Origin: a virus
Length of the DNA stretch: 22,642 nt
Strand: one strand, 5' to 3'
IMG/VR virus record: IMGVR_UViG_3300047277_000371
Location: 1-22,642 of that record
Positions 1,456-22,151 of the stretch are shown in pieces (within the stretch, counting starts at the first letter, position 1; every line of letters begins with the position of its first letter). A program made the translations under genes and the position numbers. Under the pieces are notes generated by a model. It had not been told where the DNA came from, did not search any database, and saw only the letters and a list, made by a program, of their open reading frames with translations.

Positions 1456-2406
1456 TTATAACCAGTTAAATTTTCTTATATTTTCGAAGTTTCTGTCTTT
1501 AAAGAACATAAAAGCTTTATATCTCTTGCTTGATTCAGTAATCTTTGTTATTTCTGCATAAGTAATAGGAGGTGCGAAAACCAAGGAATCTGTTTTTTTA
1601 AATAATTGCTCTCCTTTTTCTTTTTCTTCTAAATTATATCCTTTGTTTTCTAGAACAAATCTCTGTCCAGTAGATAAATTTACTATAGCCACTTGGTATT
1701 TTAAAACAGATAACATCAATGGGCACTTAGATGTTTCGTACTTAATCTCTATGGATATCACTCCACCTACGTATTCTCTTACATTTACAATATCATTTGA
1801 AGATAGTAGCTCAGCTGAACATGAAATTGTAACTACTTCATCTGCGTATCCTGTGTCTACAGCATTTTGTCCAGTAGTCCAAAGTTCGTCATTATACGAT
1901 TTTTGGTAGCTTTCTAATGTTTGTTTCCCATTAGTTCTGCTAACTACTTGTTTATCCATCGTGTCGATTATTTCATTTATTTGGCCGATTCTTTTTTCAA
2001 CACTAAGTCCTTTTCCAAACTGCCCTCTTTCTCCTCCAGACATAGGATGTGACATTAGAGTTCCAGTATCTAGGATTAAACGAGCACCAGGATTTCCTTC
2101 AGCAATTTGAAACCCCATAGAAGCTGAAAAAACGGTTATAGTTTTAACAGGTACGTTAAATCCCTTTAAAAAGTGAATTAAATTTAACCCATCGAATACA
2201 CTGCCACCTGGGGTATCTAAAACTAGATAGATAACTGGCTCTTTATTATCTGCTTTAGCAGATAATTCAGACATTGCTTTTGTGACACTTTCTGCTTCTA
2301 CAATATCTTTTAAAAAGACTGTGTTTTCTGAGTTTAATTTTATAGTATCAGCACTTGCGTTTACGCTCAATAACAGAGCAAATAAGATTCCGATAACTTT
2401 AGTCAC
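1456..2406 (-). CDS. Exported ClpP-fold serine protease
   Basis: A 316-aa protein with an N-terminal Sec signal peptide (MTKVIGILFALLLSVNASAD, cleavage probably after ASA). The ClpP/crotonase-fold core follows: LVLDTPGGSVFDGL (61-74), nucleophile Ser96 in FSASMG (compare ASMG in ClpP), His120 in LMSHPMSGG (compare MIHQP) and candidate Asp173 in YNDELW, with the usual late GQNAVDTGYADEV segment (179-191). The whole Ser-His-Asp set therefore seems present. A C-terminal extension of about 115 residues (200-316) is not recognised. Known phage ClpP-like proteins are mostly cytoplasmic head-maturation proteases; a signal peptide points to the periplasm instead. It is the last gene of a three-gene exported unit, with promoter motif 2441-2451 upstream and a terminator just downstream. 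Targets are unknown. Confidence 0.85.
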   Translation of the reverse strand: MTKVIGILFALLLSVNASADTIKLNSENTVFLKDIVEAESVTKAMSELSAKADNKEPVIYLVLDTPGGSVFDGLNLIHFLKGFNVPVKTITVFSASMGFQIAEGNPGARLILDTGTLMSHPMSGGERGQFGKGLSVEKRIGQINEIIDTMDKQVVSRTNGKQTLESYQKSYNDELWTTGQNAVDTGYADEVVTISCSAELLSSNDIVNVREYVGGVISIEIKYETSKCPLMLSVLKYQVAIVNLSTGQRFVLENKGYNLEEKEKGEQLFKKTDSLVFAPPITYAEITKITESSKRYKAFMFFKDRNFENIRKFNWL

Positions 2407-2440
2407 ATGTACCCCCTTAAGGTGTTTTTTTTTGATATAT

Positions 2441-2451
2441 TATAATACCAC
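2441..2451 (-). promoter_or_regulatory. Phage promoter motif GTGGTATTATA before the ClpP-like gene
   Basis: Minus-strand GTGGTATTATAAT in the gap between 2460 and 2406. The -10-like hexamer TATTAT is at 2442-2447, leaving a 35-nt leader with an AAGGGGG Shine-Dalgarno. No -35-like hexamer is visible at normal spacing. Confidence 0.6.
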
Positions 2452-2459
2452 GTTTATTT

Positions 2460-2786
2460 TTATTTTTTAGACAAAACTTTGCATTTTAAAGAATAAAGTA
2501 CATTTTTACCGTCTTTTGTGAATTCAATGTAATCATTAACTTCTGAAAGCTTAGATGTATTCTCTATATGGATAGTTACGTACATTCCATCTGCTTTTTC
2601 ATGAGTATGAAAAGTCTGTCCTTCTGGAGCTTCTAGTGACACATCTCCTCTTTTAAACTGACATTGTATCTTTAACACACTAGTTGCATTGGCATTTGTG
2701 ATAAGGAAATCAATTGTTATTGTTAGTAACATGATAATTGATACAAATAATGCCGTAAACATAATTCTTCTTAAAAAATCTTTCAT
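2460..2786 (-). CDS. Small exported or membrane-anchored protein, unknown
   Basis: A 108-aa protein with a basic start (MKDFLRR) and one long hydrophobic segment (about residues 8-30), ending in ITNANATS, which could be a signal-peptidase site or leave the segment as an anchor. The rest (SVLKIQCQFKRGDVSLEA...) is polar and beta-like with two cysteines (42 and 102) that could form a disulfide outside the cytoplasm. The ATG directly follows the stop of the preceding exported gene (TAAATG), with a G-rich Shine-Dalgarno inside that gene. No family recognised. Its neighbours, a signal-peptide protein and an exported protease, suggest a shared periplasmic role. Confidence 0.7.
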   Translation of the reverse strand: MKDFLRRIMFTALFVSIIMLLTITIDFLITNANATSVLKIQCQFKRGDVSLEAPEGQTFHTHEKADGMYVTIHIENTSKLSEVNDYIEFTKDGKNVLYSLKCKVLSKK

Positions 2787-3122
2787 TTAAAACCCCCAAT
2801 TAATGCTTATTATACCTTTTATTTCTTTATTTCTTAAGTCATACAGTGCATCTGGCCTTAAAGTTCCATCCATCACTGTATAGCTGTATTTAAAAAACTT
2901 TGTATCAATCCGCCCTTTAATTAAAGTAACAGTAATGCTTGCAACAGGGGTTATGTATTCTTTTGGAATGTTTATAGTTTTTTCTATTTTAGTGCTTATG
3001 TTTTTTTGAATCAATTGGTACTCTTTTGAGGCCATAATAGCTTCTTTTGTTTTATCCATGGCTCTAGCTGAGTCTTCAGCATAAGATGTGTTTAGCATAA
3101 ATAGTAAAACAAAAAACTTCAT
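2787..3122 (-). CDS. Small secreted protein, unknown
   Basis: A 111-aa protein with a short signal peptide (MKFFVLLFMLNTSYAEDS, likely cleavage after YAE or SYA). The mature part is helical and charged at first (AMDKTKEAIMASKEYQLIQK) and then beta-like, ending in an aromatic residue (ISINWGF). No cysteines, no family recognised. It is the first gene of the exported trio. A TATAAT hexamer lies only 6 nt before its ATG with no Shine-Dalgarno between, so its mRNA may be leaderless. A terminal aromatic residue is common in outer-membrane proteins, but the protein is small and this is weak evidence. Confidence 0.7.
   Translation of the reverse strand: MKFFVLLFMLNTSYAEDSARAMDKTKEAIMASKEYQLIQKNISTKIEKTINIPKEYITPVASITVTLIKGRIDTKFFKYSYTVMDGTLRPDALYDLRNKEIKGIISINWGF
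2808..2817 (-). promoter_or_regulatory. Promoter-like AAGGTATAATAAG
   Basis: Minus-strand AAGGTATAATAAG, with a perfect TATAAT at 2809-2814, lies 22 nt before the ATG at 2786, inside the end of the upstream gene. The same 13-mer occurs at 3127-3139 before the upstream gene, which makes chance less likely. Confidence 0.45.
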
Positions 3123-3126
3123 AGAC

Positions 3127-3139
3127 TTATTATACCTTT
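3127..3139 (-). promoter_or_regulatory. Start-proximal promoter AAGGTATAATAAG
   Basis: Minus-strand TATAAT at 3129-3134 is followed by only AAGTCT (6 nt) before ATG 3122. With the usual spacing of about 7 nt from the -10 hexamer to the first transcribed base, the transcript would begin at or next to the A of ATG. No clear TTGACA is seen upstream. Confidence 0.55.
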
Positions 3140-3152
3140 ATTAAACTATATG

Positions 3153-3797
3153 TCAAGAGTCCTTGCTGCGCTGGAACTTGGCCAGAGCTTTAAGCAGATT
3201 TCCAGCAGCTTCTTCAGAATCTGGATTGGTTGTGATATCAACGGTTTTGTCATTTCTTTGAGTAACAGTTGCTCCGCCAGTTCCTAAGTTTATGTTTACA
3301 GTTGGCTTGTCGCTTTCTGAATTACCAGAAGGACTAATCAGTTTTTCCAATACTTCCAATGCTTTATAATAAGAAGCGAGGTTTTTGGTGTCCATTTCTT
3401 CTATAATAGAGCTATCATTTGTGGCTAAATATTTATTTGCTTTATCGTTATAAAACTGTCCTAAAGCTGATATTATATTTAAAACAGTATCTGCTGATTG
3501 GATCTTTGTATTTCTCATTTTAGTAGCAATTCCAGTTGATATGTCTCCATAATAATCAACTCTCTTTAGGAACCATTTAGATCTATGAGCTATATATAGA
3601 ACTAAATCCTTCTTGTCCTTTGTAATATGAGCTATTTCAGCATAACTTTTCCCATTCATATATAGATTTAGCCAAGAAAAAACCTTAGCATCGTCTATCT
3701 TCACAAGACCAGGGCATCCGTTAGATATGTATTCCTGTAATGATTTCTGTTCCTCTGGAGTCATATCATCAGGTAGAACTTGAGTTGTTATTTCCAT
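3153..3797 (-). CDS. HTH-containing protein, possible small-terminase-like
   Basis: A 214-aa protein. Residues about 40-80 (VFSWLNLYMNGKSYAEIAHI through HRSKWFLKR) look like a helix-turn-helix of the kind found in small terminase subunits and phage DNA-binding proteins. The middle (105-155) is helical, and the tail (160-214) has a Thr/Gly/Asn-rich stretch (PTVNINLGTGGATVTQRNDK) and a final helix. It overlaps the preceding gene by 10 bp, and an AAAAGG Shine-Dalgarno lies 6 nt before its ATG. It is distant from the large terminase at 17542-19386, so the packaging role is only a suggestion. A transcription regulator is the main alternative. Confidence 0.55.
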   Translation of the reverse strand: MEITTQVLPDDMTPEEQKSLQEYISNGCPGLVKIDDAKVFSWLNLYMNGKSYAEIAHITKDKKDLVLYIAHRSKWFLKRVDYYGDISTGIATKMRNTKIQSADTVLNIISALGQFYNDKANKYLATNDSSIIEEMDTKNLASYYKALEVLEKLISPSGNSESDKPTVNINLGTGGATVTQRNDKTVDITTNPDSEEAAGNLLKALAKFQRSKDS

Positions 3798-4114
3798 AGA
3801 CTACCTTTTAGTTTAAATTCAACAGCGGTATTTGACCAAAATAGGAATCTTGTCCACAAAGTAAGATCCTCAAATGCCTTTTTTCTTTTCTCTTCTGATG
3901 GATAGATATTTTCCTTAAAAGTAAGATCGAATATTACCTTGCCTTCATAAAACTCAGAACTGGCATTAATAAAATCATAATCTACTAATACTTCATCAAC
4001 ATTGTCAAAAACAATTAAAGGCCATTGTTTAAGATTTGTTTCTTGGAATTCAGATATGTTTTTAGAAACCATAAGCATATTCCTATGGTCGTCAATAATA
4101 GTATTAGATGACAT
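3788..4114 (-). CDS. Small hypothetical protein
   Basis: A 108-aa protein beginning MSSNTIIDDHRNMLMVSKNI. The ATG at 4114 is chosen over the TTG at 4126 because GGAGG lies 5 nt upstream of it. That Shine-Dalgarno is inside the end of the gp47-like gene, whose last 11 bp it overlaps. The sequence is acidic and aromatic (FDNVDEVLVDYDFI, LWTRFLFWSNTAVEFKL) with no signal peptide. No family recognised. Position between the gp47-like nuclease and the HTH protein implies co-expression with replication and recombination genes. Confidence 0.65.
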   Translation of the reverse strand: MSSNTIIDDHRNMLMVSKNISEFQETNLKQWPLIVFDNVDEVLVDYDFINASSEFYEGKVIFDLTFKENIYPSEEKRKKAFEDLTLWTRFLFWSNTAVEFKLKGSLWK

Positions 4115-5057
4115 CAATTCCTCCAATGTACTCTGTTATTTCAAGTACAGAAATACCAACTAATGGTGTGAAATTATTTAGTGCATATTCGTTTATATTC
4201 AATAACTTAGATCCATCTGTCTTTACGTGCTTTCTATCAATAGGAACTGCTTTTATTGATCCCTTTCCTTTTAATTGTTTTTTTATGTTGGCTATCCAAG
4301 AGCTTTTACCAATCAACTCAAAAGCCATCTTTGCATTAGAAGGGAACTCTGGAATTTCCTCTCCTTCTTTTATTGTTACCCTATACATAGGTTGCACAAC
4401 CTCTTTAGTAGGTAGGAACTCTTTTTCTCCAGTATCATCTGAAATAAGCCATATTCCTTTTTCTTCCCCTGCATCTGTAGCTGTCATCCACATTGGGCTG
4501 CCAGCGTAAAATACCTTACCTTGACTTAGTTTATTGGAATGAACGTGGCCACTTATTATACTAGTCTGTGGTATTAAATCTGGATTGATCATGTCTCCGA
4601 ACAATTCCTGAGTAAAATTAGCATGAGCAATTAAAGTAGTAGTTCCAATAGCATTTTTACAATTATTTATTAACTTATTGGAATCATGTGTATATGCATG
4701 GTAGATGTACTTGCCAGATACAAAATGATCGTTTACTATATTTACGTTTTTTATTTTATCTTTTAAAGTAAATAAAGAATATATCTCCGTTTCTTTTTCT
4801 TTTACGTGTATTTGATCATGGTTTCCAACTAATACTATTATTGGTTTTTCTAATAAATTAAAAACATCTAGGTTTTTAGTCCAAAAAACATTAACTTCTT
4901 GTCTTATAATTGCGTGAGTATCGTATAAATCACCTAGAAAAACTACTTTACTTACAGAATTATCGCTTGCGATTACGAGAGCGAAATCTATTAGATCTTG
5001 AGCTTCCTCAATATTGCTTGGTTTGCAGTGTACGTCACCGATATAAAGAGTTTTCAT
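4104..5057 (-). CDS. gp47/SbcD/Mre11-like DNA exonuclease subunit
   Basis: A 317-aa calcineurin-type metallophosphoesterase. The ordered metal-binding motifs are visible: GDVHCKP (7-13; Asp8, His10), GDLYDTH (42-48), GNHDQ (78-82), and a late GHVHS (about 170-174) after an internal IAHANF. This spacing matches phage gp47 and bacterial SbcD nucleases, which cut DNA ends in complex with an SbcC/gp46 ATPase. The partner gene begins at 875 but is separated from it by about 3.2 kb, including an exported-protein unit. It follows the GroES-like stop by a few bases with an AGAGG Shine-Dalgarno, and its end carries the Shine-Dalgarno of the next gene. Confidence 0.9.
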   Translation of the reverse strand: MKTLYIGDVHCKPSNIEEAQDLIDFALVIASDNSVSKVVFLGDLYDTHAIIRQEVNVFWTKNLDVFNLLEKPIIVLVGNHDQIHVKEKETEIYSLFTLKDKIKNVNIVNDHFVSGKYIYHAYTHDSNKLINNCKNAIGTTTLIAHANFTQELFGDMINPDLIPQTSIISGHVHSNKLSQGKVFYAGSPMWMTATDAGEEKGIWLISDDTGEKEFLPTKEVVQPMYRVTIKEGEEIPEFPSNAKMAFELIGKSSWIANIKKQLKGKGSIKAVPIDRKHVKTDGSKLLNINEYALNNFTPLVGISVLEITEYIGGIDVI

Positions 5058-12736: not shown

Positions 12737-13612
12737 TTATAATTCCCATTTCTTATGTCCATAATCGTATATCTTATATAAGGGCTTTTCATGACCTAGA
12801 TATTTTCTACTAAACACTCCACCCAACGCTTGAGCCTTTTCACTAGGATATTGAGCTATAATTTCAGGATCGTTTATTCTCTTGCATTTGTAGCGCCAAA
12901 TTCTCTGTGTTAAATCGGTGTAGTAATACGATGGATCAATGGTCTTTGTAATCTCTTTAAATCCAAGTTGTTGATAAACATTTCCAACACTAAGCCTATT
13001 ATTTGAGAAAGTAATCAAGCGTTCTCCGAACTCTCTCTTAAATTCTTTAATAAGCCTACCACCATTGCCATGCACTAAATAACTATAGTCGTTTGCAAAT
13101 CTAGCTATTTCCCAGCTTTTATCTGCAAAACTCTTTCTAAAACTTAGGCATGATACTAATATGTCGTTATGAAACAATCCATAAGCAAAACTAGCATTTG
13201 TGTGTCCATCTAAGTGAAATTTAGCGAAAAAATCCTTAAATTGCTTATTATTATCTAATTTTCTTAATTCAAGCTTAGAGGCTCTTAGTTTTGTTAAAGG
13301 AGCTATTTTAAGTCTGTACTTAATCATTTCCTTTAGAAGTTCTTGTTTTGTTGGGTTATTCCATTCATCTTCGAATATCGCAAGAAAATTTATGTTATTT
13401 TCTTTAGCTAAGACTACTTTTCGCATATTTTTCTTTTTTATATTAACCTGAGTAGTTTCGTTATTGCTATCAAGTCCTATAAATTCAACTCCAAACTTAA
13501 ACTCTGGTGAATAAATATCTAATTCTAACGGCTCAGTGATATTTAATTGAACTTCACCAGAATAGTTTTTTTTAATAAATTCGAGAATTTCTTTTGGTAT
13601 TTTTTTACTCAT
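12737..13612 (-). CDS. Free-standing homing endonuclease: N-terminal PD-(D/E)XK/Vsr-like nuclease plus GNAT-like domain (HEG3)
   Basis: A 291-aa protein. Residues 25-80 look like the Vsr/EDxHD nuclease core: PLELDIYSPEFKFGVEFIGL (candidate Glu30, Asp32, Glu43) then KNMRKVVLAKENNINFLAIF. Residues about 110-240 read as a GNAT/Mom-like fold: GLFHNDILVSCLSFRKS, WEIARFAND, HGNGGRLIKEF, then TFSNNRLSVGNVYQQLGF. The C-terminus (LGGVFSRKYLGHEKPLYKIY, DYGHKKWEL) is typical of phage homing endonucleases of this architecture. It lies directly after the portal gene with its own start-proximal promoter motif. The ATG follows TATTAT by 5 nt, so a leaderless mRNA is likely. The target site is not identifiable here. 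Confidence 0.75.
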   Translation of the reverse strand: MSKKIPKEILEFIKKNYSGEVQLNITEPLELDIYSPEFKFGVEFIGLDSNNETTQVNIKKKNMRKVVLAKENNINFLAIFEDEWNNPTKQELLKEMIKYRLKIAPLTKLRASKLELRKLDNNKQFKDFFAKFHLDGHTNASFAYGLFHNDILVSCLSFRKSFADKSWEIARFANDYSYLVHGNGGRLIKEFKREFGERLITFSNNRLSVGNVYQQLGFKEITKTIDPSYYYTDLTQRIWRYKCKRINDPEIIAQYPSEKAQALGGVFSRKYLGHEKPLYKIYDYGHKKWEL

Positions 13613-15394: not shown

Positions 15395-16495
15395 TTAATT
15401 CCTTAAAAAATTTAAACATTTTTCTATAGTATGTTGTTTATTTGAATTATATTCTTTTTCTGTTATATGCAATATGCCAATTCCTTTGCTTTTGAAATAA
15501 TCATCCTTAATTTGATGATAATTTTCAATATCTTCATCTGGCCAGTTTTTTCTGCCTCTCTTTAGTCCAGCAAAAGAATGGTGAAATGTACCGTCAAATT
15601 CTATCCCTTTTCTTAATTCTGGCACGTAAATATCTATTTCAAAACCAAAAATCAATGGTTTGTCAGGTATGGTTATCTTTCTTTCCACTAATCTTATTGT
15701 TTTTGGAAAAAGTATTTTTATGCTATGAAATAAATCCAATTCTTGTTGTGAAATACTACTGTGTTTGTCCATATGACTACAAACTTTATCTAATATTTTC
15801 AGCTCTCTACAGTAAGCATAAATATGAGGAGCTGTTGATTTAAAAACTCCTCTTTTTGAATACTTTAAAGCCTCTTCAACAGCTCGATCATGGCTTAATG
15901 GCAAGTATACTAATGTCATATGTGAGCATATTTTATCTAATATTTTAAGCTTTATGGCCGCTTTGTACTGCTTTGGACTATTTTCTCTAAATTCATTTCT
16001 AGTGCTATATTGTGAAGCTTCCAAGGTTACTTGCTCTTCACTCCAAATATGCACTTTGTAATCAGGCATATGAGCACATACTTCTTCTTTAATCATTAAT
16101 TTAGAAGACAGTCGATACAAATAAGGATTTTTATCTTTAAATTCAGTTCTAGTTTTATATTTCAAGGCTTCTTTTTTTATAAAATTAACAGTGATTGTTT
16201 GTTTTAAATTTTTATTTGGAAAAAGCTTGTCCATATATCCACTTTCTACAGCATACTTGTATCCAGAGGGGTATGTTTTTTTAAAATTACTTCTGCCAGT
16301 GCATTTTTTTGACAGATGAATAACAGTCTCTAAATCCCATTTAATTTTAAGCACTTGCATGTGAGAACAAACTTTGTCTAGTATATTCAATCTTATCGCA
16401 GCTCTGTAAGCAGATCCTGACTCTTTAAATTCACTCTTAGTGTTGTACTTCAAAGCCTCTTCTTGAATCAATTCAAATGTCCATTTCACTACCAT
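15395..16495 (-). CDS. Free-standing homing endonuclease: five DNA-binding modules plus C-terminal Vsr-like nuclease (HEG2)
   Basis: A 366-aa protein. Five about 40-residue modules (about 6-46, 55-93, 103-143, 151-193, 201-242) follow the pattern EALKYNTKSEFK...YRAAIRLNILDKVCSHM; the second is divergent. These are expected to bind DNA. Residues 250-366 are the nuclease: FEIDIYVPELRKGIEFDGTF (candidate Glu286, Asp288, Glu299), His305/306, IKDDYFKSKGIGILHITE. This matches the EDxHD/Vsr-like homing nucleases fused to repeated DNA-binding modules in large phages. It sits between the 16512-17456 structural gene and the portal, with its own promoter motif 5 nt from the ATG. The stop is 1 nt before the portal ATG. 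Confidence 0.8.
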   Translation of the reverse strand: MVVKWTFELIQEEALKYNTKSEFKESGSAYRAAIRLNILDKVCSHMQVLKIKWDLETVIHLSKKCTGRSNFKKTYPSGYKYAVESGYMDKLFPNKNLKQTITVNFIKKEALKYKTRTEFKDKNPYLYRLSSKLMIKEEVCAHMPDYKVHIWSEEQVTLEASQYSTRNEFRENSPKQYKAAIKLKILDKICSHMTLVYLPLSHDRAVEEALKYSKRGVFKSTAPHIYAYCRELKILDKVCSHMDKHSSISQQELDLFHSIKILFPKTIRLVERKITIPDKPLIFGFEIDIYVPELRKGIEFDGTFHHSFAGLKRGRKNWPDEDIENYHQIKDDYFKSKGIGILHITEKEYNSNKQHTIEKCLNFLRN

Positions 16496-17541: not shown

Positions 17542-19386
17542 TTACCACATTATCCTTTTTTTTGTTACTTTTGCGTCTTTTTTCTCATTTTCTACGTTTG
17601 GAGCTAGTTCTTTGAGTTTTCCATACATTAATCCTGCATTTTTGTCTACAATTTTCTCTTGCAAGGTTTGCTCTTTATCTTTTTTCTGCTCGTCAGAATT
17701 AATAGTAAATCTCACCTTACCACCTTTGCTGAATAGACATTGATGTGGATATCTCAAACTATCGGCTATGTCACTCACCCCATCTTTATCATGGTAAGGT
17801 TTCTCCGTAGGATTGCCGTGATTGTCTAAAGCCCATTTATAATCACCAAACATCTGAATTATCCTTTCAGTATTAGGTTGTTTTATTACAAATAATCTTC
17901 TAACTCCTGTAGCATCAACTATTTTTGATTGCACTGCGGAAATACCGTCAGCAACTACTTTAGTAAATTCAGGACATTTCATACCATTTTTACGCATCGT
18001 TACCAATAAACTAGGATAGTTTTGATCAACGTACCATTTGTCAATTTGCCATTTTTCTTGCAATTCTTTAGCGTGTTTTACAACATCACTGTGTTCAAGT
18101 CCTTTTTCTAACATACCATCTACTATCCAAACAATACCTCCAGGCAATAAAGCTAAGACGACTAAACTAGTATAATCTGTAAAACCCCAATCTCCTCCGC
18201 CTATAAAAGTAATACCTAAATTCATCAAATAATCATGTAAGTGTTCTAGAGAGGTGTTGTTAGGTTTTTCACCAAGTAACTCAGTCAACGCTTGCTCTGG
18301 TGTCATTATGTTTAATAATGGATTAAAACGACCGTAAACTAATCCAGCACTAGATGGCTTGTTACACAAAAGCTGAGCATCTGCTATTTCAATATCTGTT
18401 ACTTTAAAGTTATTGTGAACAGCTGTAAGTGGTTTGTACAAATACCCTGTATCTTCAGAAGATCTGTCAACTAAGTAGTTTCGCATGACAGGTAGCATTT
18501 TATGTTCAGCAATTCCAGCATAAGCACTGAATTGCTCGTATTTGTTTTTATCTTTTTCTTCTAATAACAACCATTCTTGTGGGGATAAATTAGACATTGG
18601 GAGCTGTGAGCTAATATATCTCTCTACCATTGGTAGATGCTTTAGAGATATGTTTTCGGATATATGTTCAGCCACATCCAAAATATTCCATTGAAAAACT
18701 TTTCCTCCTATGCTTGGAGTTCTAGTTATCTCAGATTCCATAAGTCCCGAAGCGAATTTCCTTGTGCTTAAAATTAGAATTAATGGAGCAATACCTCTGT
18801 ACATAGAAGGAACCATTCTGCTTTCTTTAAAAGCGGCTCCATCCATAAGATCCAATTCATCCAGAACCAAAAAAGGAACGTGGCGAGAATTAAAACCTTC
18901 CTTTGTAGCTGTTAAAACAGTGAGTGAAATATCATCGCCAGCTGGCGTTCTCCATTCAATTAAGGTTTTATTGTCTGATGTTTTAGTCCAGCCGTGATAT
19001 TCTAGATAAGGTCTAATTTTGCGAAACATTGTATTTACATAAGCAACACAAGCTCCAGCTTGGAATTTAATGGCCGCTGCATGAGCCATAGGTAGTTGAA
19101 AATGAACAAATAAAAGAACCTCAATAGCGGCTGCGGATAATGTTTTATAGCTATCTCTTGAAGCGCACATAACTACTTGTGGACAATCTACAGTTCCGCC
19201 TGTTTTAAAAAGATTGTAAATGCTCCACATAGAATGAGTAGGTGATGAATTGCTAGTTGGGTATACAACGCCACTTGGAAAGTAAATCCCTAAATAAAGA
19301 TACACCCATTCTCTTAATTCTTCTTCTGAATTAAGAGGCTGGAATAACATATCTCGTTTGTGTTGTTCTAATTCTTCTGGTGTCAT
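17542..19386 (-). CDS. Terminase large subunit (DNA-packaging ATPase and nuclease)
   Basis: A 614-aa protein with both terminase domains. ATPase: a Walker A variant ASRDSYKT (75-82, no glycine in the loop), Walker B FLVLDELD (172-179), and STR (207-209) as coupling motif. Nuclease (RNase H-like): FIGGGDWGFTDYTSLVVLAL (394-413; Asp399), YVDQNYPS (452-459; Asp454), and DKDGVSDIADSLRYP (533-547). The enzyme pumps DNA into the head and cuts concatemers. The start overlaps the stop of HEG1 (ATGA) and lies inside one copy of an 11-bp direct repeat (19379-19389). The current Shine-Dalgarno (AAGAAG) is weak. Confidence 0.9.
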   Translation of the reverse strand: MTPEELEQHKRDMLFQPLNSEEELREWVYLYLGIYFPSGVVYPTSNSSPTHSMWSIYNLFKTGGTVDCPQVVMCASRDSYKTLSAAAIEVLLFVHFQLPMAHAAAIKFQAGACVAYVNTMFRKIRPYLEYHGWTKTSDNKTLIEWRTPAGDDISLTVLTATKEGFNSRHVPFLVLDELDLMDGAAFKESRMVPSMYRGIAPLILILSTRKFASGLMESEITRTPSIGGKVFQWNILDVAEHISENISLKHLPMVERYISSQLPMSNLSPQEWLLLEEKDKNKYEQFSAYAGIAEHKMLPVMRNYLVDRSSEDTGYLYKPLTAVHNNFKVTDIEIADAQLLCNKPSSAGLVYGRFNPLLNIMTPEQALTELLGEKPNNTSLEHLHDYLMNLGITFIGGGDWGFTDYTSLVVLALLPGGIVWIVDGMLEKGLEHSDVVKHAKELQEKWQIDKWYVDQNYPSLLVTMRKNGMKCPEFTKVVADGISAVQSKIVDATGVRRLFVIKQPNTERIIQMFGDYKWALDNHGNPTEKPYHDKDGVSDIADSLRYPHQCLFSKGGKVRFTINSDEQKKDKEQTLQEKIVDKNAGLMYGKLKELAPNVENEKKDAKVTKKRIMW

Positions 19387-19389
19387 ATT
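19379..19389 (-). repeat. 11-bp direct repeat copy at the terminase start
   Basis: Minus-strand AATATGACACC contains the terminase start codon and the stop of HEG1. An identical 11-mer contains the HEG1 start at 20365-20375. The two copies bracket exactly the HEG1 ORF, as would be left by insertion of that ORF at the original terminase start. Confidence 0.7.
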
Positions 19390-20372
19390 TGATCTTCTTT
19401 GATTAAATGAGATATTTGCAATAGCTCTATTTGTTCTAATATAAACCGTTCTTTGTTTTTAACTACATAAGGTACAACAATCAATTTAGTTTCATTTTTA
19501 TCACATAATTGTTGTTTCAATATATCTCTATCTTGAATACCTTGAAATGTAGTTTTTCCACCCCAATAATCAATAGCATGATAGTGTTGCTGTCCGTTAT
19601 ATTCTAATGCAATATTTAAATCATGGTTATAACAATCTAATTCTAAGTTAGATCCAGTATCTGGATTTTGAAGAAAATCTGGCCTAATATTAACAAACTC
19701 TACTCCAAATAAGCTTTGCATAATTTGTCTACATTCTTCTTCATGTTTGTGAGTTTGACATTTAGTACAGCGATGTGTGGTTTGAAAATTATTCCATCTG
19801 ACAGAGAATTCATGACCTTCTTTGCATTTTAATGTCACAATACTTTTTGCGTTTTTATAACCATCTGGTAATGCAACAAAAGAAAATCCAGTATTAATAA
19901 TTTGTTTATACATATTTTCCAATGGAAGTTTTTGATCTACAGAAACTTTTTTTATATTACACTTTGCACATGGAGTTGTGTTTTCTACACGTATAGAGTC
20001 TAATATTTTACATGTTTTTCTTATTTGCTCTCCATGAATATTACATATAAATTTAATTGAAGAATTGTTATTTTTATATTCTTTATCTGTTGAAATAACA
20101 CTAAAACCACTTAATTCAATCTCTTTTTTTACTTTAGTAAATAACAGTCTTTTAGGGTGAAAATCAACTAAGCTCTCTACGTAACACTGTCTGCATACAT
20201 ATATATTCGCCAATCTGCAAATCTCTTTTGTGAAAATATGTCCTTTTTTACACATTAGTTTTACTGGATAAGAAACACCCTTGAAGTCTAACTTATCAGT
20301 TAAGATGGTCAAATCCTTTCTATCTGTTATTTCCTGTGCTTGTTCATATGTTTTCTTACTATGCGGTGTCAT
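19383..20372 (-). CDS. Free-standing homing endonuclease: three zinc-ribbon modules plus C-terminal Vsr-like nuclease (HEG1)
   Basis: A 329-aa protein. Three zinc-ribbon-like units are seen: Cys41-His45-Cys60-Cys63, Cys110-His113-Cys135-Cys138, and Cys183-His187-Cys202-Cys205. They are presumed DNA-binding. The nuclease (about 210-329) has LELDCYNHDLNIALEYNGQQ (243-262; candidate Glu244, Asp246, Glu257), His263/265 and IQDRDILKQQLCDKNETKLI (279-298), as in Vsr/EDxHD nucleases. It lies between groEL-like and terminase, both starting ATGACACC; the ORF is bracketed by an 11-bp direct repeat. AGGA Shine-Dalgarno 5 nt before the ATG. Which cleavage site it uses cannot be told. Confidence 0.75.
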   Translation of the reverse strand: MTPHSKKTYEQAQEITDRKDLTILTDKLDFKGVSYPVKLMCKKGHIFTKEICRLANIYVCRQCYVESLVDFHPKRLLFTKVKKEIELSGFSVISTDKEYKNNNSSIKFICNIHGEQIRKTCKILDSIRVENTTPCAKCNIKKVSVDQKLPLENMYKQIINTGFSFVALPDGYKNAKSIVTLKCKEGHEFSVRWNNFQTTHRCTKCQTHKHEEECRQIMQSLFGVEFVNIRPDFLQNPDTGSNLELDCYNHDLNIALEYNGQQHYHAIDYWGGKTTFQGIQDRDILKQQLCDKNETKLIVVPYVVKNKERFILEQIELLQISHLIKEDQI

Positions 20373-20378: not shown

Positions 20379-22151
20379 CTAAGAACGCTCATTAGCTTCG
20401 TTCCTTATCCCTTCTGCATTTTCTAATGTACTTCTAAAGTTGATATCATCTAGAGCTTCTTGACGTTCTAAAGCGCCATCTCTAGGAAAACAAACAACTC
20501 CGCCTAATACACCCATAACACCGCTAATACTAACTGCGTTACTTAAAGCCTGTTGTACAGCTAATGTAGCGTCAAATACGCCTAATTCCTTAGCTGTACC
20601 ATATTTTGCATTTTCTACATCATATACTAATTTTTTATCACCCAACATCTGAGCTAATATTTCTTCTTGTTCTTCTACTATATATCCAGCGTTATCCAAT
20701 AATTTAAAGAAAGGAGCGAATAAAGAAGGAATCAAAACATTTGCTATAATTTCTTTGTTATCTGTTTCAGTACTAAGCTCTATTCCTAAGTTTATAAGAG
20801 TTCTACATCCACCTGGCAAACAGCCATGGTTTAGAGCTGCTCTAACTGCACAAACAGCATCTTCAGCTCTATCTGCTTTTTCCTTAAGCTCTCCAGAAGA
20901 AGATCCGTATAATTTAAGCTGAGCAATTCCACTTGTAAGTTTTCCTAGTCTTTCTTCAAATAAAATCTTATCAATCTTACTTTCAGCTTGTTCCATTCTT
21001 TTTTGAATCTGATTAGCTCTATCTTCAATATTTACTTCATCAGAGTCACCAATTACAGTTGTTCTGAATCTACTAATCTCTATCTTTTGCATTCCGTTTC
21101 CTAAGTCTTCTGTCTGAGCATCTGCAATAGAATTACTCATATCAAAAATCTTGGCTCCAGTAAAAGCTGATAAATCCATTAAAAATTCTAATTGAGAATT
21201 AGCTTGTTGAGACATTGGAGTTAAAATAGGAACTATGTTGATAGTATTAGGGTTTGAAAAATTGAATGATAGAGTAGTCAATACTTGATCTGAAAATCCA
21301 TGTGCTACTACTACTACGTTTTTAAACTCAGATTGTCCGTTTACATATGCCTCTCCAATAGCTTCTAATAGAGATTGTATTTGCATCATATCAGAAATCT
21401 GACCATCAAAAAGAATAAATAAAGGAGCGTCAAGAACACATCTTTGAGTTCCTTGGTCGTTTATAAAAGCTTGGTGAAATTTACCGATGCTTTCTTCATA
21501 TCCTTTTTCAATAGGGAATCCGTCTATTTTTTTTACTTCATATTTGCCAGATGGCCCAGAAAGCTCTTGAATAGTAACATGAGAGCTAGCCCCAAATCCT
21601 ACCATTTCAAATGCTTCTATAACAGCTCTTGCCATGTCAGTATCTCCATTGGCAGAAACTGTAGCTACTTTTTCCAGTAAGTCTTGATTCTTAGTGTTTA
21701 TCTTAATAGATTGCTTTTGAATAGAAGGAATCATTTTATCTTTCAATAAAGAATTCATAACTCTTACTACTTTTTGAGGAGAATATCTCCTGTTACTAGC
21801 ACAAAATGCAAATAGATTTTTTATCAAAGCTGCTGAAATTACAGTAGCAGTTGTTGTTCCATCTCCAGCCTCATTTACCGTTCTAATTGCAGCATCACGG
21901 ACTTGTTCAATAATAATATGTTTATATGGATCATTAGATCCAAGTGCTCTAAAAATAGAAACACCATCTTTTGTATTTTTATTAGGAATTCCGTACAGGT
22001 CTGACTCTACAAGAACAACTCTACCGCCTGGCCCTAGACTAGATCCAACTATATTTGAAATTTCATCCATAGTTGATACTACTATTTTTTGTAGCTTAGA
22101 TATATCGCTAGTGAATATCTTTGCAGGGGTTTTAATACGTTTAACGCTCAT
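20379..22151 (-). CDS. GroEL-like chaperonin
   Basis: A 590-aa protein, longer than the 548 aa of E. coli GroEL. Catalytic and nucleotide-binding motifs are present: SLGPGGR (38-44), TKDGVSI (60-66; Asp62 matches Asp52), EAGDGTTTATV (94-104; Asp97 matches Asp87), RAEDAVCAVRAALNHG (matches RVEDALHATRAAVEEG with Asp398) and GGCRTL. The C-terminus is charged (IRNEANERS) and has no GGM tail. The protein has diverged strongly in the apical domain, which binds substrates and GroES. Phage chaperonins of this type form rings that fold phage proteins. A GroES-like gene is at 5058-5357. AAAGGAG Shine-Dalgarno, with promoter motif 22181-22191. Confidence 0.9.
   Translation of the reverse strand: MSVKRIKTPAKIFTSDISKLQKIVVSTMDEISNIVGSSLGPGGRVVLVESDLYGIPNKNTKDGVSIFRALGSNDPYKHIIIEQVRDAAIRTVNEAGDGTTTATVISAALIKNLFAFCASNRRYSPQKVVRVMNSLLKDKMIPSIQKQSIKINTKNQDLLEKVATVSANGDTDMARAVIEAFEMVGFGASSHVTIQELSGPSGKYEVKKIDGFPIEKGYEESIGKFHQAFINDQGTQRCVLDAPLFILFDGQISDMMQIQSLLEAIGEAYVNGQSEFKNVVVVAHGFSDQVLTTLSFNFSNPNTINIVPILTPMSQQANSQLEFLMDLSAFTGAKIFDMSNSIADAQTEDLGNGMQKIEISRFRTTVIGDSDEVNIEDRANQIQKRMEQAESKIDKILFEERLGKLTSGIAQLKLYGSSSGELKEKADRAEDAVCAVRAALNHGCLPGGCRTLINLGIELSTETDNKEIIANVLIPSLFAPFFKLLDNAGYIVEEQEEILAQMLGDKKLVYDVENAKYGTAKELGVFDATLAVQQALSNAVSISGVMGVLGGVVCFPRDGALERQEALDDINFRSTLENAEGIRNEANERS

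Follow-up and report, generated by a model that had tools for sequence, protein, structure and literature searches.

What a ClpP-fold protease preceded by a signal peptide would be doing in a bacteriophage, encoded between the genes of the SbcD/gp47-like and SbcC/gp46-like proteins, is the question raised by this locus. One has to keep in mind that phage ClpP-like genes are routinely labelled as head-maturation proteases; the family described here does not play that part, and many records are probably misannotated. The window, by which we mean the whole stretch of DNA analysed (22.6 kb, 33% GC), is a virus fragment from IMG/VR and belongs to a group of large, uncultivated phages. Its sole close named relative is Myxococcus phage Mx1, whose terminase shares 30% identity with the large terminase of the window; near relatives in IMG/VR share 65% identity in the terminase and 61% in the portal protein, and their terminase, portal, groEL-like, helicase, and SbcD genes follow one another as in the window. 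The GroEL-like chaperonin gene (20379–22151; phrog_5725, 7e-91) adjoins the large terminase gene and is kept across the lineage. Amid the head genes, the segments 12737–13612, 15395–16495, and 19383–20372 are inserted genes, possibly homing-endonuclease-like, and the close relative L004 is without them there.

Used alone as a query against viral contigs, neither the ClpP-like nor the SbcD-like protein of the window retrieved any relative, and it is with the terminase, the portal, and small alignments that the searches succeeded; alignment-based scans then gave 66 viral loci with a ClpP of this type, from which 53 IMG/VR homologues were aligned with gene starts set by the ribosome-binding site. 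The occupancy of the locus was read in a separate sample of records retrieved via the portal protein, a choice that avoids selecting for the presence of ClpP. Only canonical ClpPs were found among the matches examined in named GenBank phages, and the literature searched offered nothing on an exported phage ClpP, nor on the Mx1 genome.

The sequence-only reading had described three consecutive minus-strand genes between the two nuclease-complex-like genes, and they are indeed present there (A, B, and the ClpP-like gene in Table 1). Some 30 relatives show the gene order sbcD, g3788, g3153, [A], [B], ClpP, g1103, sbcC, where square brackets mark genes that may be missing, so that g3153 and g1103 border what we call the slot. 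The three genes had also been seen as what separates gp47 from gp46; the close relative L103 has nothing in the slot, and the same three remaining genes still part the two. The right border gene g1103 is listed as an ORF extending to 1417, its homologues beginning at a methionine near 1354. The left border gene g3153 has no Pfam match over the cut-off and no PHROG match; its Mx1 homologue sits immediately before terL, and it is possibly a small-terminase-like protein. Rfam gave zero matches near the A-B-ClpP unit. Between g1103 and sbcC lies a 76-aa tandem-repeat ORF (LYSKLCSKLDSKLYSEL...; 872–1102) found in the window phage only.

Table 1. Features of the A-B-ClpP locus and its borders (window coordinates).
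Feature	Position	Strand	Evidence or remarks
Predicted exported ClpP-fold serine protease	1456–2406	−	316 aa, GTG start; PF00574, AF2, Foldseek, conservation in 53 homologues
B	2460–2786	−	108 aa; N-terminal hydrophobic segment, two conserved Cys
A	2787–3122	−	111 aa; probably exported, short signal peptide
g3153, left border of the slot	3153–3797	−	conserved family
g1103, right border of the slot, CxxC zinc-ribbon-like	1103–1354	−	sub-threshold Zn_ribbon_8 match only
SbcD/gp47-like nuclease gene, upstream neighbour	4104–5057	−	phrog_100, 7.3e-22
SbcC/gp46-like gene, downstream neighbour, truncated by the window end	3–875	−	phrog_77, 1.3e-12
Consensus sigma70 promoter before A, TTGACA-16-TATAAT	3129–3156	−	12/12 match
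Phage promoter-like motif upstream of ClpP, GTGGTATTATA	2441–2451	−	common to groEL and other window genes
Intrinsic terminator after ClpP	1431–1450	−	8-bp stem, T-rich tail; symmetric, would also serve the + strand

The assignment of the last gene of the unit to the ClpP fold, made at the outset, is borne out by three lines of evidence. Pfam matches residues 23–193 to PF00574 (4.4e-17); an AF2 model built on the 53-sequence alignment adopts the ClpP fold at a pLDDT of 83 (with only four sequences the pLDDT was 49, and that model was not used); and Foldseek aligns it with PDB ClpP chains at TM scores of 0.72–0.80 on the target. The model comprises a ClpP core (about 21–196), a beta-rich domain (about 207–254), and a C-terminal helix. 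The best viral structural match, at 31% identity over most of the length, is the ClpP A0A6J5KYR7 of an uncultured Caudovirales phage (BFVD), which is probably a member of the same family and is named merely as a ClpP protease subunit, with no mention of export in the name.

A complete Ser96/His120/Asp173 catalytic set had been proposed, of which the first two residues stand, both being invariant in 53/53 homologues (the serine motif reads ASMA in some of them). Asp173 was rejected as the acid: only 10/53 homologues have D at this position, to which variable residues correspond in canonical ClpPs, against E or D at position 174 in all 53 (Glu in 51, Asp in 2). In S. aureus ClpP and in eight canonical phage ClpPs, the residue aligned with Glu174 is the catalytic Asp. 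Since Ser96 and His120 are invariant and Glu174 takes the place of the catalytic Asp, we assign the family to a Ser-His-Glu variant of the fold rather than to the Ser-His-Asp triad of S14 ClpP. Two further residues, C196 and C228, are present in 53/53 homologues and absent from the eight canonical phage ClpPs, as expected if the protein is exported and disulfide-bonded. The proteins are under constraint, given that dN/dS between pairs of homologues ranges from 0.02 to 0.36, which indicates purifying selection.

The signal peptide that had been noted on the ClpP-like protein is a good one of Sec type (MTKVIGILFALLLSVNASA/DT, residues 1–19). Export was scored by a simple rule on charge and hydrophobicity and by eye: an export signal or membrane anchor was found in 53/53 aligned homologues, in each of which positive charges at the N-terminus precede a hydrophobic core. 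An A-x-A cleavage site is seen in many of them and a lipobox in one (L016), and the members of one subgroup show the long linker that is usual in anchored proteins. With automatic gene starts, the same rule accepts 59/64 ClpPs, against 0/37 for g3153, 0/37 for g3788, 0/71 for the portal protein, and 0–19% for the remaining gene families of the same contigs, A and B being set apart. A ClpP-type protease predicted to act outside the cytoplasm is thereby supported, and the two invariant cysteines, the separate prohead protease, and the further cytoplasmic ClpPs described below agree with it. We speak of the periplasm as an assumption, since two membranes surround the only candidate hosts, Myxococcus together with the Deltaproteobacteria and Saprospiraceae whose metagenome-assembled genomes contain homologues of this ClpP.

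We then come to the slot itself, which could be read in 17 portal-sampled records. It holds an exported-type ClpP in 11 of them (two nearly identical), a trypsin-like protein with an export-type N-terminus in five, and nothing in one (L103); in other words, a protease of one kind or the other fills it in 16/17, and the two kinds occur together in 0/34 portal-sampled records. Three of the trypsin-like proteins, scanned singly, pass the curated cut-off of Trypsin_2 (PF13365) with E-values of 1e-8 to 2e-12, and a genome-level search places all five over it; a lipobox or an N-terminal anchor is present in 5/5. On a portal tree of 33 records, the trypsin label changes at least three times across well-supported branches, and the sister records L148 (ClpP) and L150 (trypsin) differ in occupant. 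At one slot, a serine protease predicted to be exported has repeatedly undergone non-orthologous replacement. Such an interchange of ClpP and trypsin-like enzymes suggests that the benefit comes from proteolysis in the compartment, and not from a property specific to ClpP; that an unrelated fold has refilled the slot several times further suggests that envelope proteolysis is real and selected in infection. In L103 at least, where the slot is empty, the function must be dispensable.

A and B behave otherwise. The A family has seven distinct members including that of the window, located just after g3153 and, where the record continues, upstream of B or ClpP; the B family has four including that of the window, its homologues in L018, L022, and L230 lying immediately upstream of ClpP, and it occurs only in the window clade, always accompanied by A. 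B has neither a Pfam match over the cut-off nor a PHROG match. BLAST gave zero matches between the A protein of the window and its L007 counterpart, their relation being shown by an iterated profile. All three products of the unit had been credited with a signal peptide or a hydrophobic N-terminal segment; this stands for ClpP and is weaker for the two small families, as 3/7 members of A and 2/3 of B pass the simple export rule, and in the window's A the hydrophobic core behind the call is short. Both genes are accessories in the window clade, sporadic in the manner of add-ons. The C-termini of A in the window, L007, L017, L018, and L022 show a final Phe after alternate hydrophobic or aromatic residues (ISINWGF, NINIGWEF, LNISISF); they resemble the targeting signal of outer-membrane beta-barrels, bearing in mind that mature A has only about 95 residues.

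The unit had been given promoters of its own, one of them a repeated 13-mer, as well as a strong terminator. The promoter before A matches the sigma70 consensus in full and ends 7 nt from the ATG of A, so that the transcript would be nearly leaderless; a TTGAC/TATAAT-like sequence is seen by eye at the corresponding position ahead of A in L007, L018, L022, L037, and L230. ClpP is preceded by a different motif, GTGGTATTATA, with exact minus-strand copies near gene starts at 2441, 6683, 13617, 16500, and 22181 and 12 sites with at most one mismatch in the window (2.9 expected); its core, TGRTATW, lies upstream of clpP in 22/56 cases (2.5 expected). The 13-mer fared less well as a second promoter: its second copy (2806–2818) is inside the 3′ coding sequence of A (codons for KGIIS), and the motif precedes B in 0/3 relatives having B, which led us to reject that copy as a B promoter; repeated 13-mers number 88 in the window, versus 21 in order-1 random sequence. 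The terminator is confirmed and follows the ClpP gene, with similar strong ones in L008, L017, L018, L019, and L022 and in few members outside the clade. Judged from these sequence signals, A-B-ClpP is a transcription unit of its own in the window clade.

Two of the alternatives to be weighed would assign the protease to the virion. The best PHROG matches of the exported-type ClpP carry the name head maturation protease, and one could suppose a head-maturation enzyme displaced from the head cluster, its hydrophobic N-terminus being a propeptide; the border gene beside terL in Mx1 and the location of this ClpP within the head cluster in a second phage group would agree with it. We nevertheless rejected this identity, which the sequence-only reading had already doubted, on the presence of a separate prohead protease. 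Indeed, the annotated prohead protease of Mx1 has phrog_1028, a head maturation protease, as its best PHROG (1e-4), and its homologues are found in more than 20 loci, including L004, whose contig carries both this homologue and the exported-type ClpP; in L062, of the second group, the head cluster contains two ClpPs, one anchored and one cytoplasmic, and, just upstream of scaffold-like and capsid-like genes, a protease of phrog_1028 (2.3e-44). A second ClpP is present in 19/23 long records with the exported type, and an export signal on 0/9 of those with a readable start. One does not expect a propeptide to be of the cleavable, lipobox, or anchor type, and a swap with trypsin-like lipoproteins fits a head protease poorly; we consider this identity very improbable. 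An exported protease carried by the virion, on its surface or inside it, could act at entry, for instance against a barrier at the surface or in the periplasm. The proximity to head genes in the second group and the promoter motif common to clpP and portal- or groEL-type genes would agree with this; incorporation into a virion needs no Sec signal peptide and the protein carries no fused tail or virion domain, and we consider this reading just as improbable.

The other two alternatives leave the protease in the envelope. The locus had been taken for a self-contained, moron-like cassette, that is to say a recently acquired A-B-ClpP moron, independently expressed and altering the host surface, e.g., for superinfection exclusion. 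The promoter before A and the terminator after ClpP, the clean absence from L103, and the sporadic occurrence of A and B speak for it, the first of these in the window clade only. A moron should be sporadic or variable in position, whereas dozens of relatives carry the protease gene at this one position, 16/17 portal-chosen records have either it or its replacement in the slot, and its homologues are under purifying selection, leaving only A and B as sporadic elements; outside the clade, most of the protease genes lie close behind g3153 and have no terminator; and a search at E 1e-30 did not find the family in two sets of other bacterial genomes (57 and 246) from the phyla of the positive metagenome-assembled genomes. 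We do not retain the cassette for the protease, and regard the moron as improbable. It could also be that the protease does housekeeping for the phage, disposing of signal peptides and of exported phage proteins that are misfolded or cleaved, and does not attack host proteins. In cells, such quality control is carried out by SppA (ClpP fold) and DegP (trypsin fold), so both folds of the slot fill roles of this kind, and their interchangeability suggests a broad specificity. The host presumably owns DegP and SppA already, though, and few other exported proteins were noticed in the window; we consider housekeeping unlikely.

The reading that we favour, with moderate confidence, is that of a Sec-exported, probably disulfide-bonded, ATPase-free envelope protease with a Ser96-His120-Glu174 triad, in a slot dedicated to one protease. 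Its starting points are the fold, the export signals, the catalytic residues, the cysteines, the fixed slot, and the replacement, all read in the sequences. The Sec pathway would export the ClpP-fold protease, its signal peptide being removed or, in some relatives, the protein remaining anchored or lipidated; a disulfide would form between the two invariant cysteines, the enzyme would assemble without an ATPase partner, and the triad would cut host envelope proteins or peptides during infection. The g3153–g1103 slot would be dedicated to one extracytoplasmic serine protease, mostly of the ClpP type and otherwise trypsin-like, to which the window clade would add small exported A and B as co-transcribed accessories. 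The targets may be host receptors, stress sensors, or barrier proteins, or else exported proteins of the phage itself, and candidate purposes are a block to superinfection, a weakening of the envelope, or the silencing of host envelope sensing; an action on envelope proteins or superinfection, as first suggested, is plausible. On a broader scale, we incline to the view that a widespread lineage of large phages has an “envelope protease slot” for an ATP-independent, disulfide-stabilised Ser-His-Glu ClpP enzyme interchangeable with trypsin-like lipoproteins, which would imply a previously unrecognised exported ClpP-fold enzyme and a conserved extracytoplasmic proteolysis step in infection. The repeated swap of folds at one slot points to such a step at the host envelope, for which the literature searched offers no precedent, and makes an unusually clean evolutionary argument for function.

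Several known systems can be set beside this family. ClpP (MEROPS S14) and phage ClpP-like proteins have the same fold, Ser and His motifs, GG oxyanion region, and helix arrangement. ClpP normally needs assembly into two stacked heptameric rings and an AAA+ ATPase partner; the family described here differs by its export signal or anchor, its Glu acid in 51/53, an extra C-terminal beta domain with the two invariant Cys, and a compartment where no ATP is expected. If the enzyme is active, its ClpP fold and His-Glu pair would be at work in an extracytoplasmic compartment and independently of ATP. The phage ClpP-type head-maturation proteases (phrog_94, phrog_133) are distantly similar in sequence, and annotation pipelines would apply their name, but the present family is predicted to be exported and coexists with a separate phrog_1028 prohead protease. 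SppA/SohB and 1510-N/NfeD (S49) are ClpP-fold, ATP-independent enzymes that work outside the cytoplasm or at the membrane, and by analogy the exported ClpP may work in a similar way; S49 enzymes use a Ser-Lys dyad in place of Ser-His-Glu, and the exported ClpP has no match to PF01343 (S49) and a conserved His instead. DegP/HtrA differ from it in fold and clan and recall the alternative occupant of the slot, likewise a trypsin-like protease (PF13365) with export features; no PDZ domain was matched in the three trypsin-like slot enzymes scanned.

Two minor observations concern other members of these groups. In Mx1 (L014:3633–4202; WNM70284), an exported-looking protein ending in GVTAQF is encoded after the cytoplasmic ClpP gene. 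In other phage groups, the exported-type ClpP gene lies near recombination genes, as it does here near gp46/gp47, possibly by chance: at L045:7728–8585 and L062:9701–10789 it is found beside RecA-like or PD-(D/E)XK nuclease genes.
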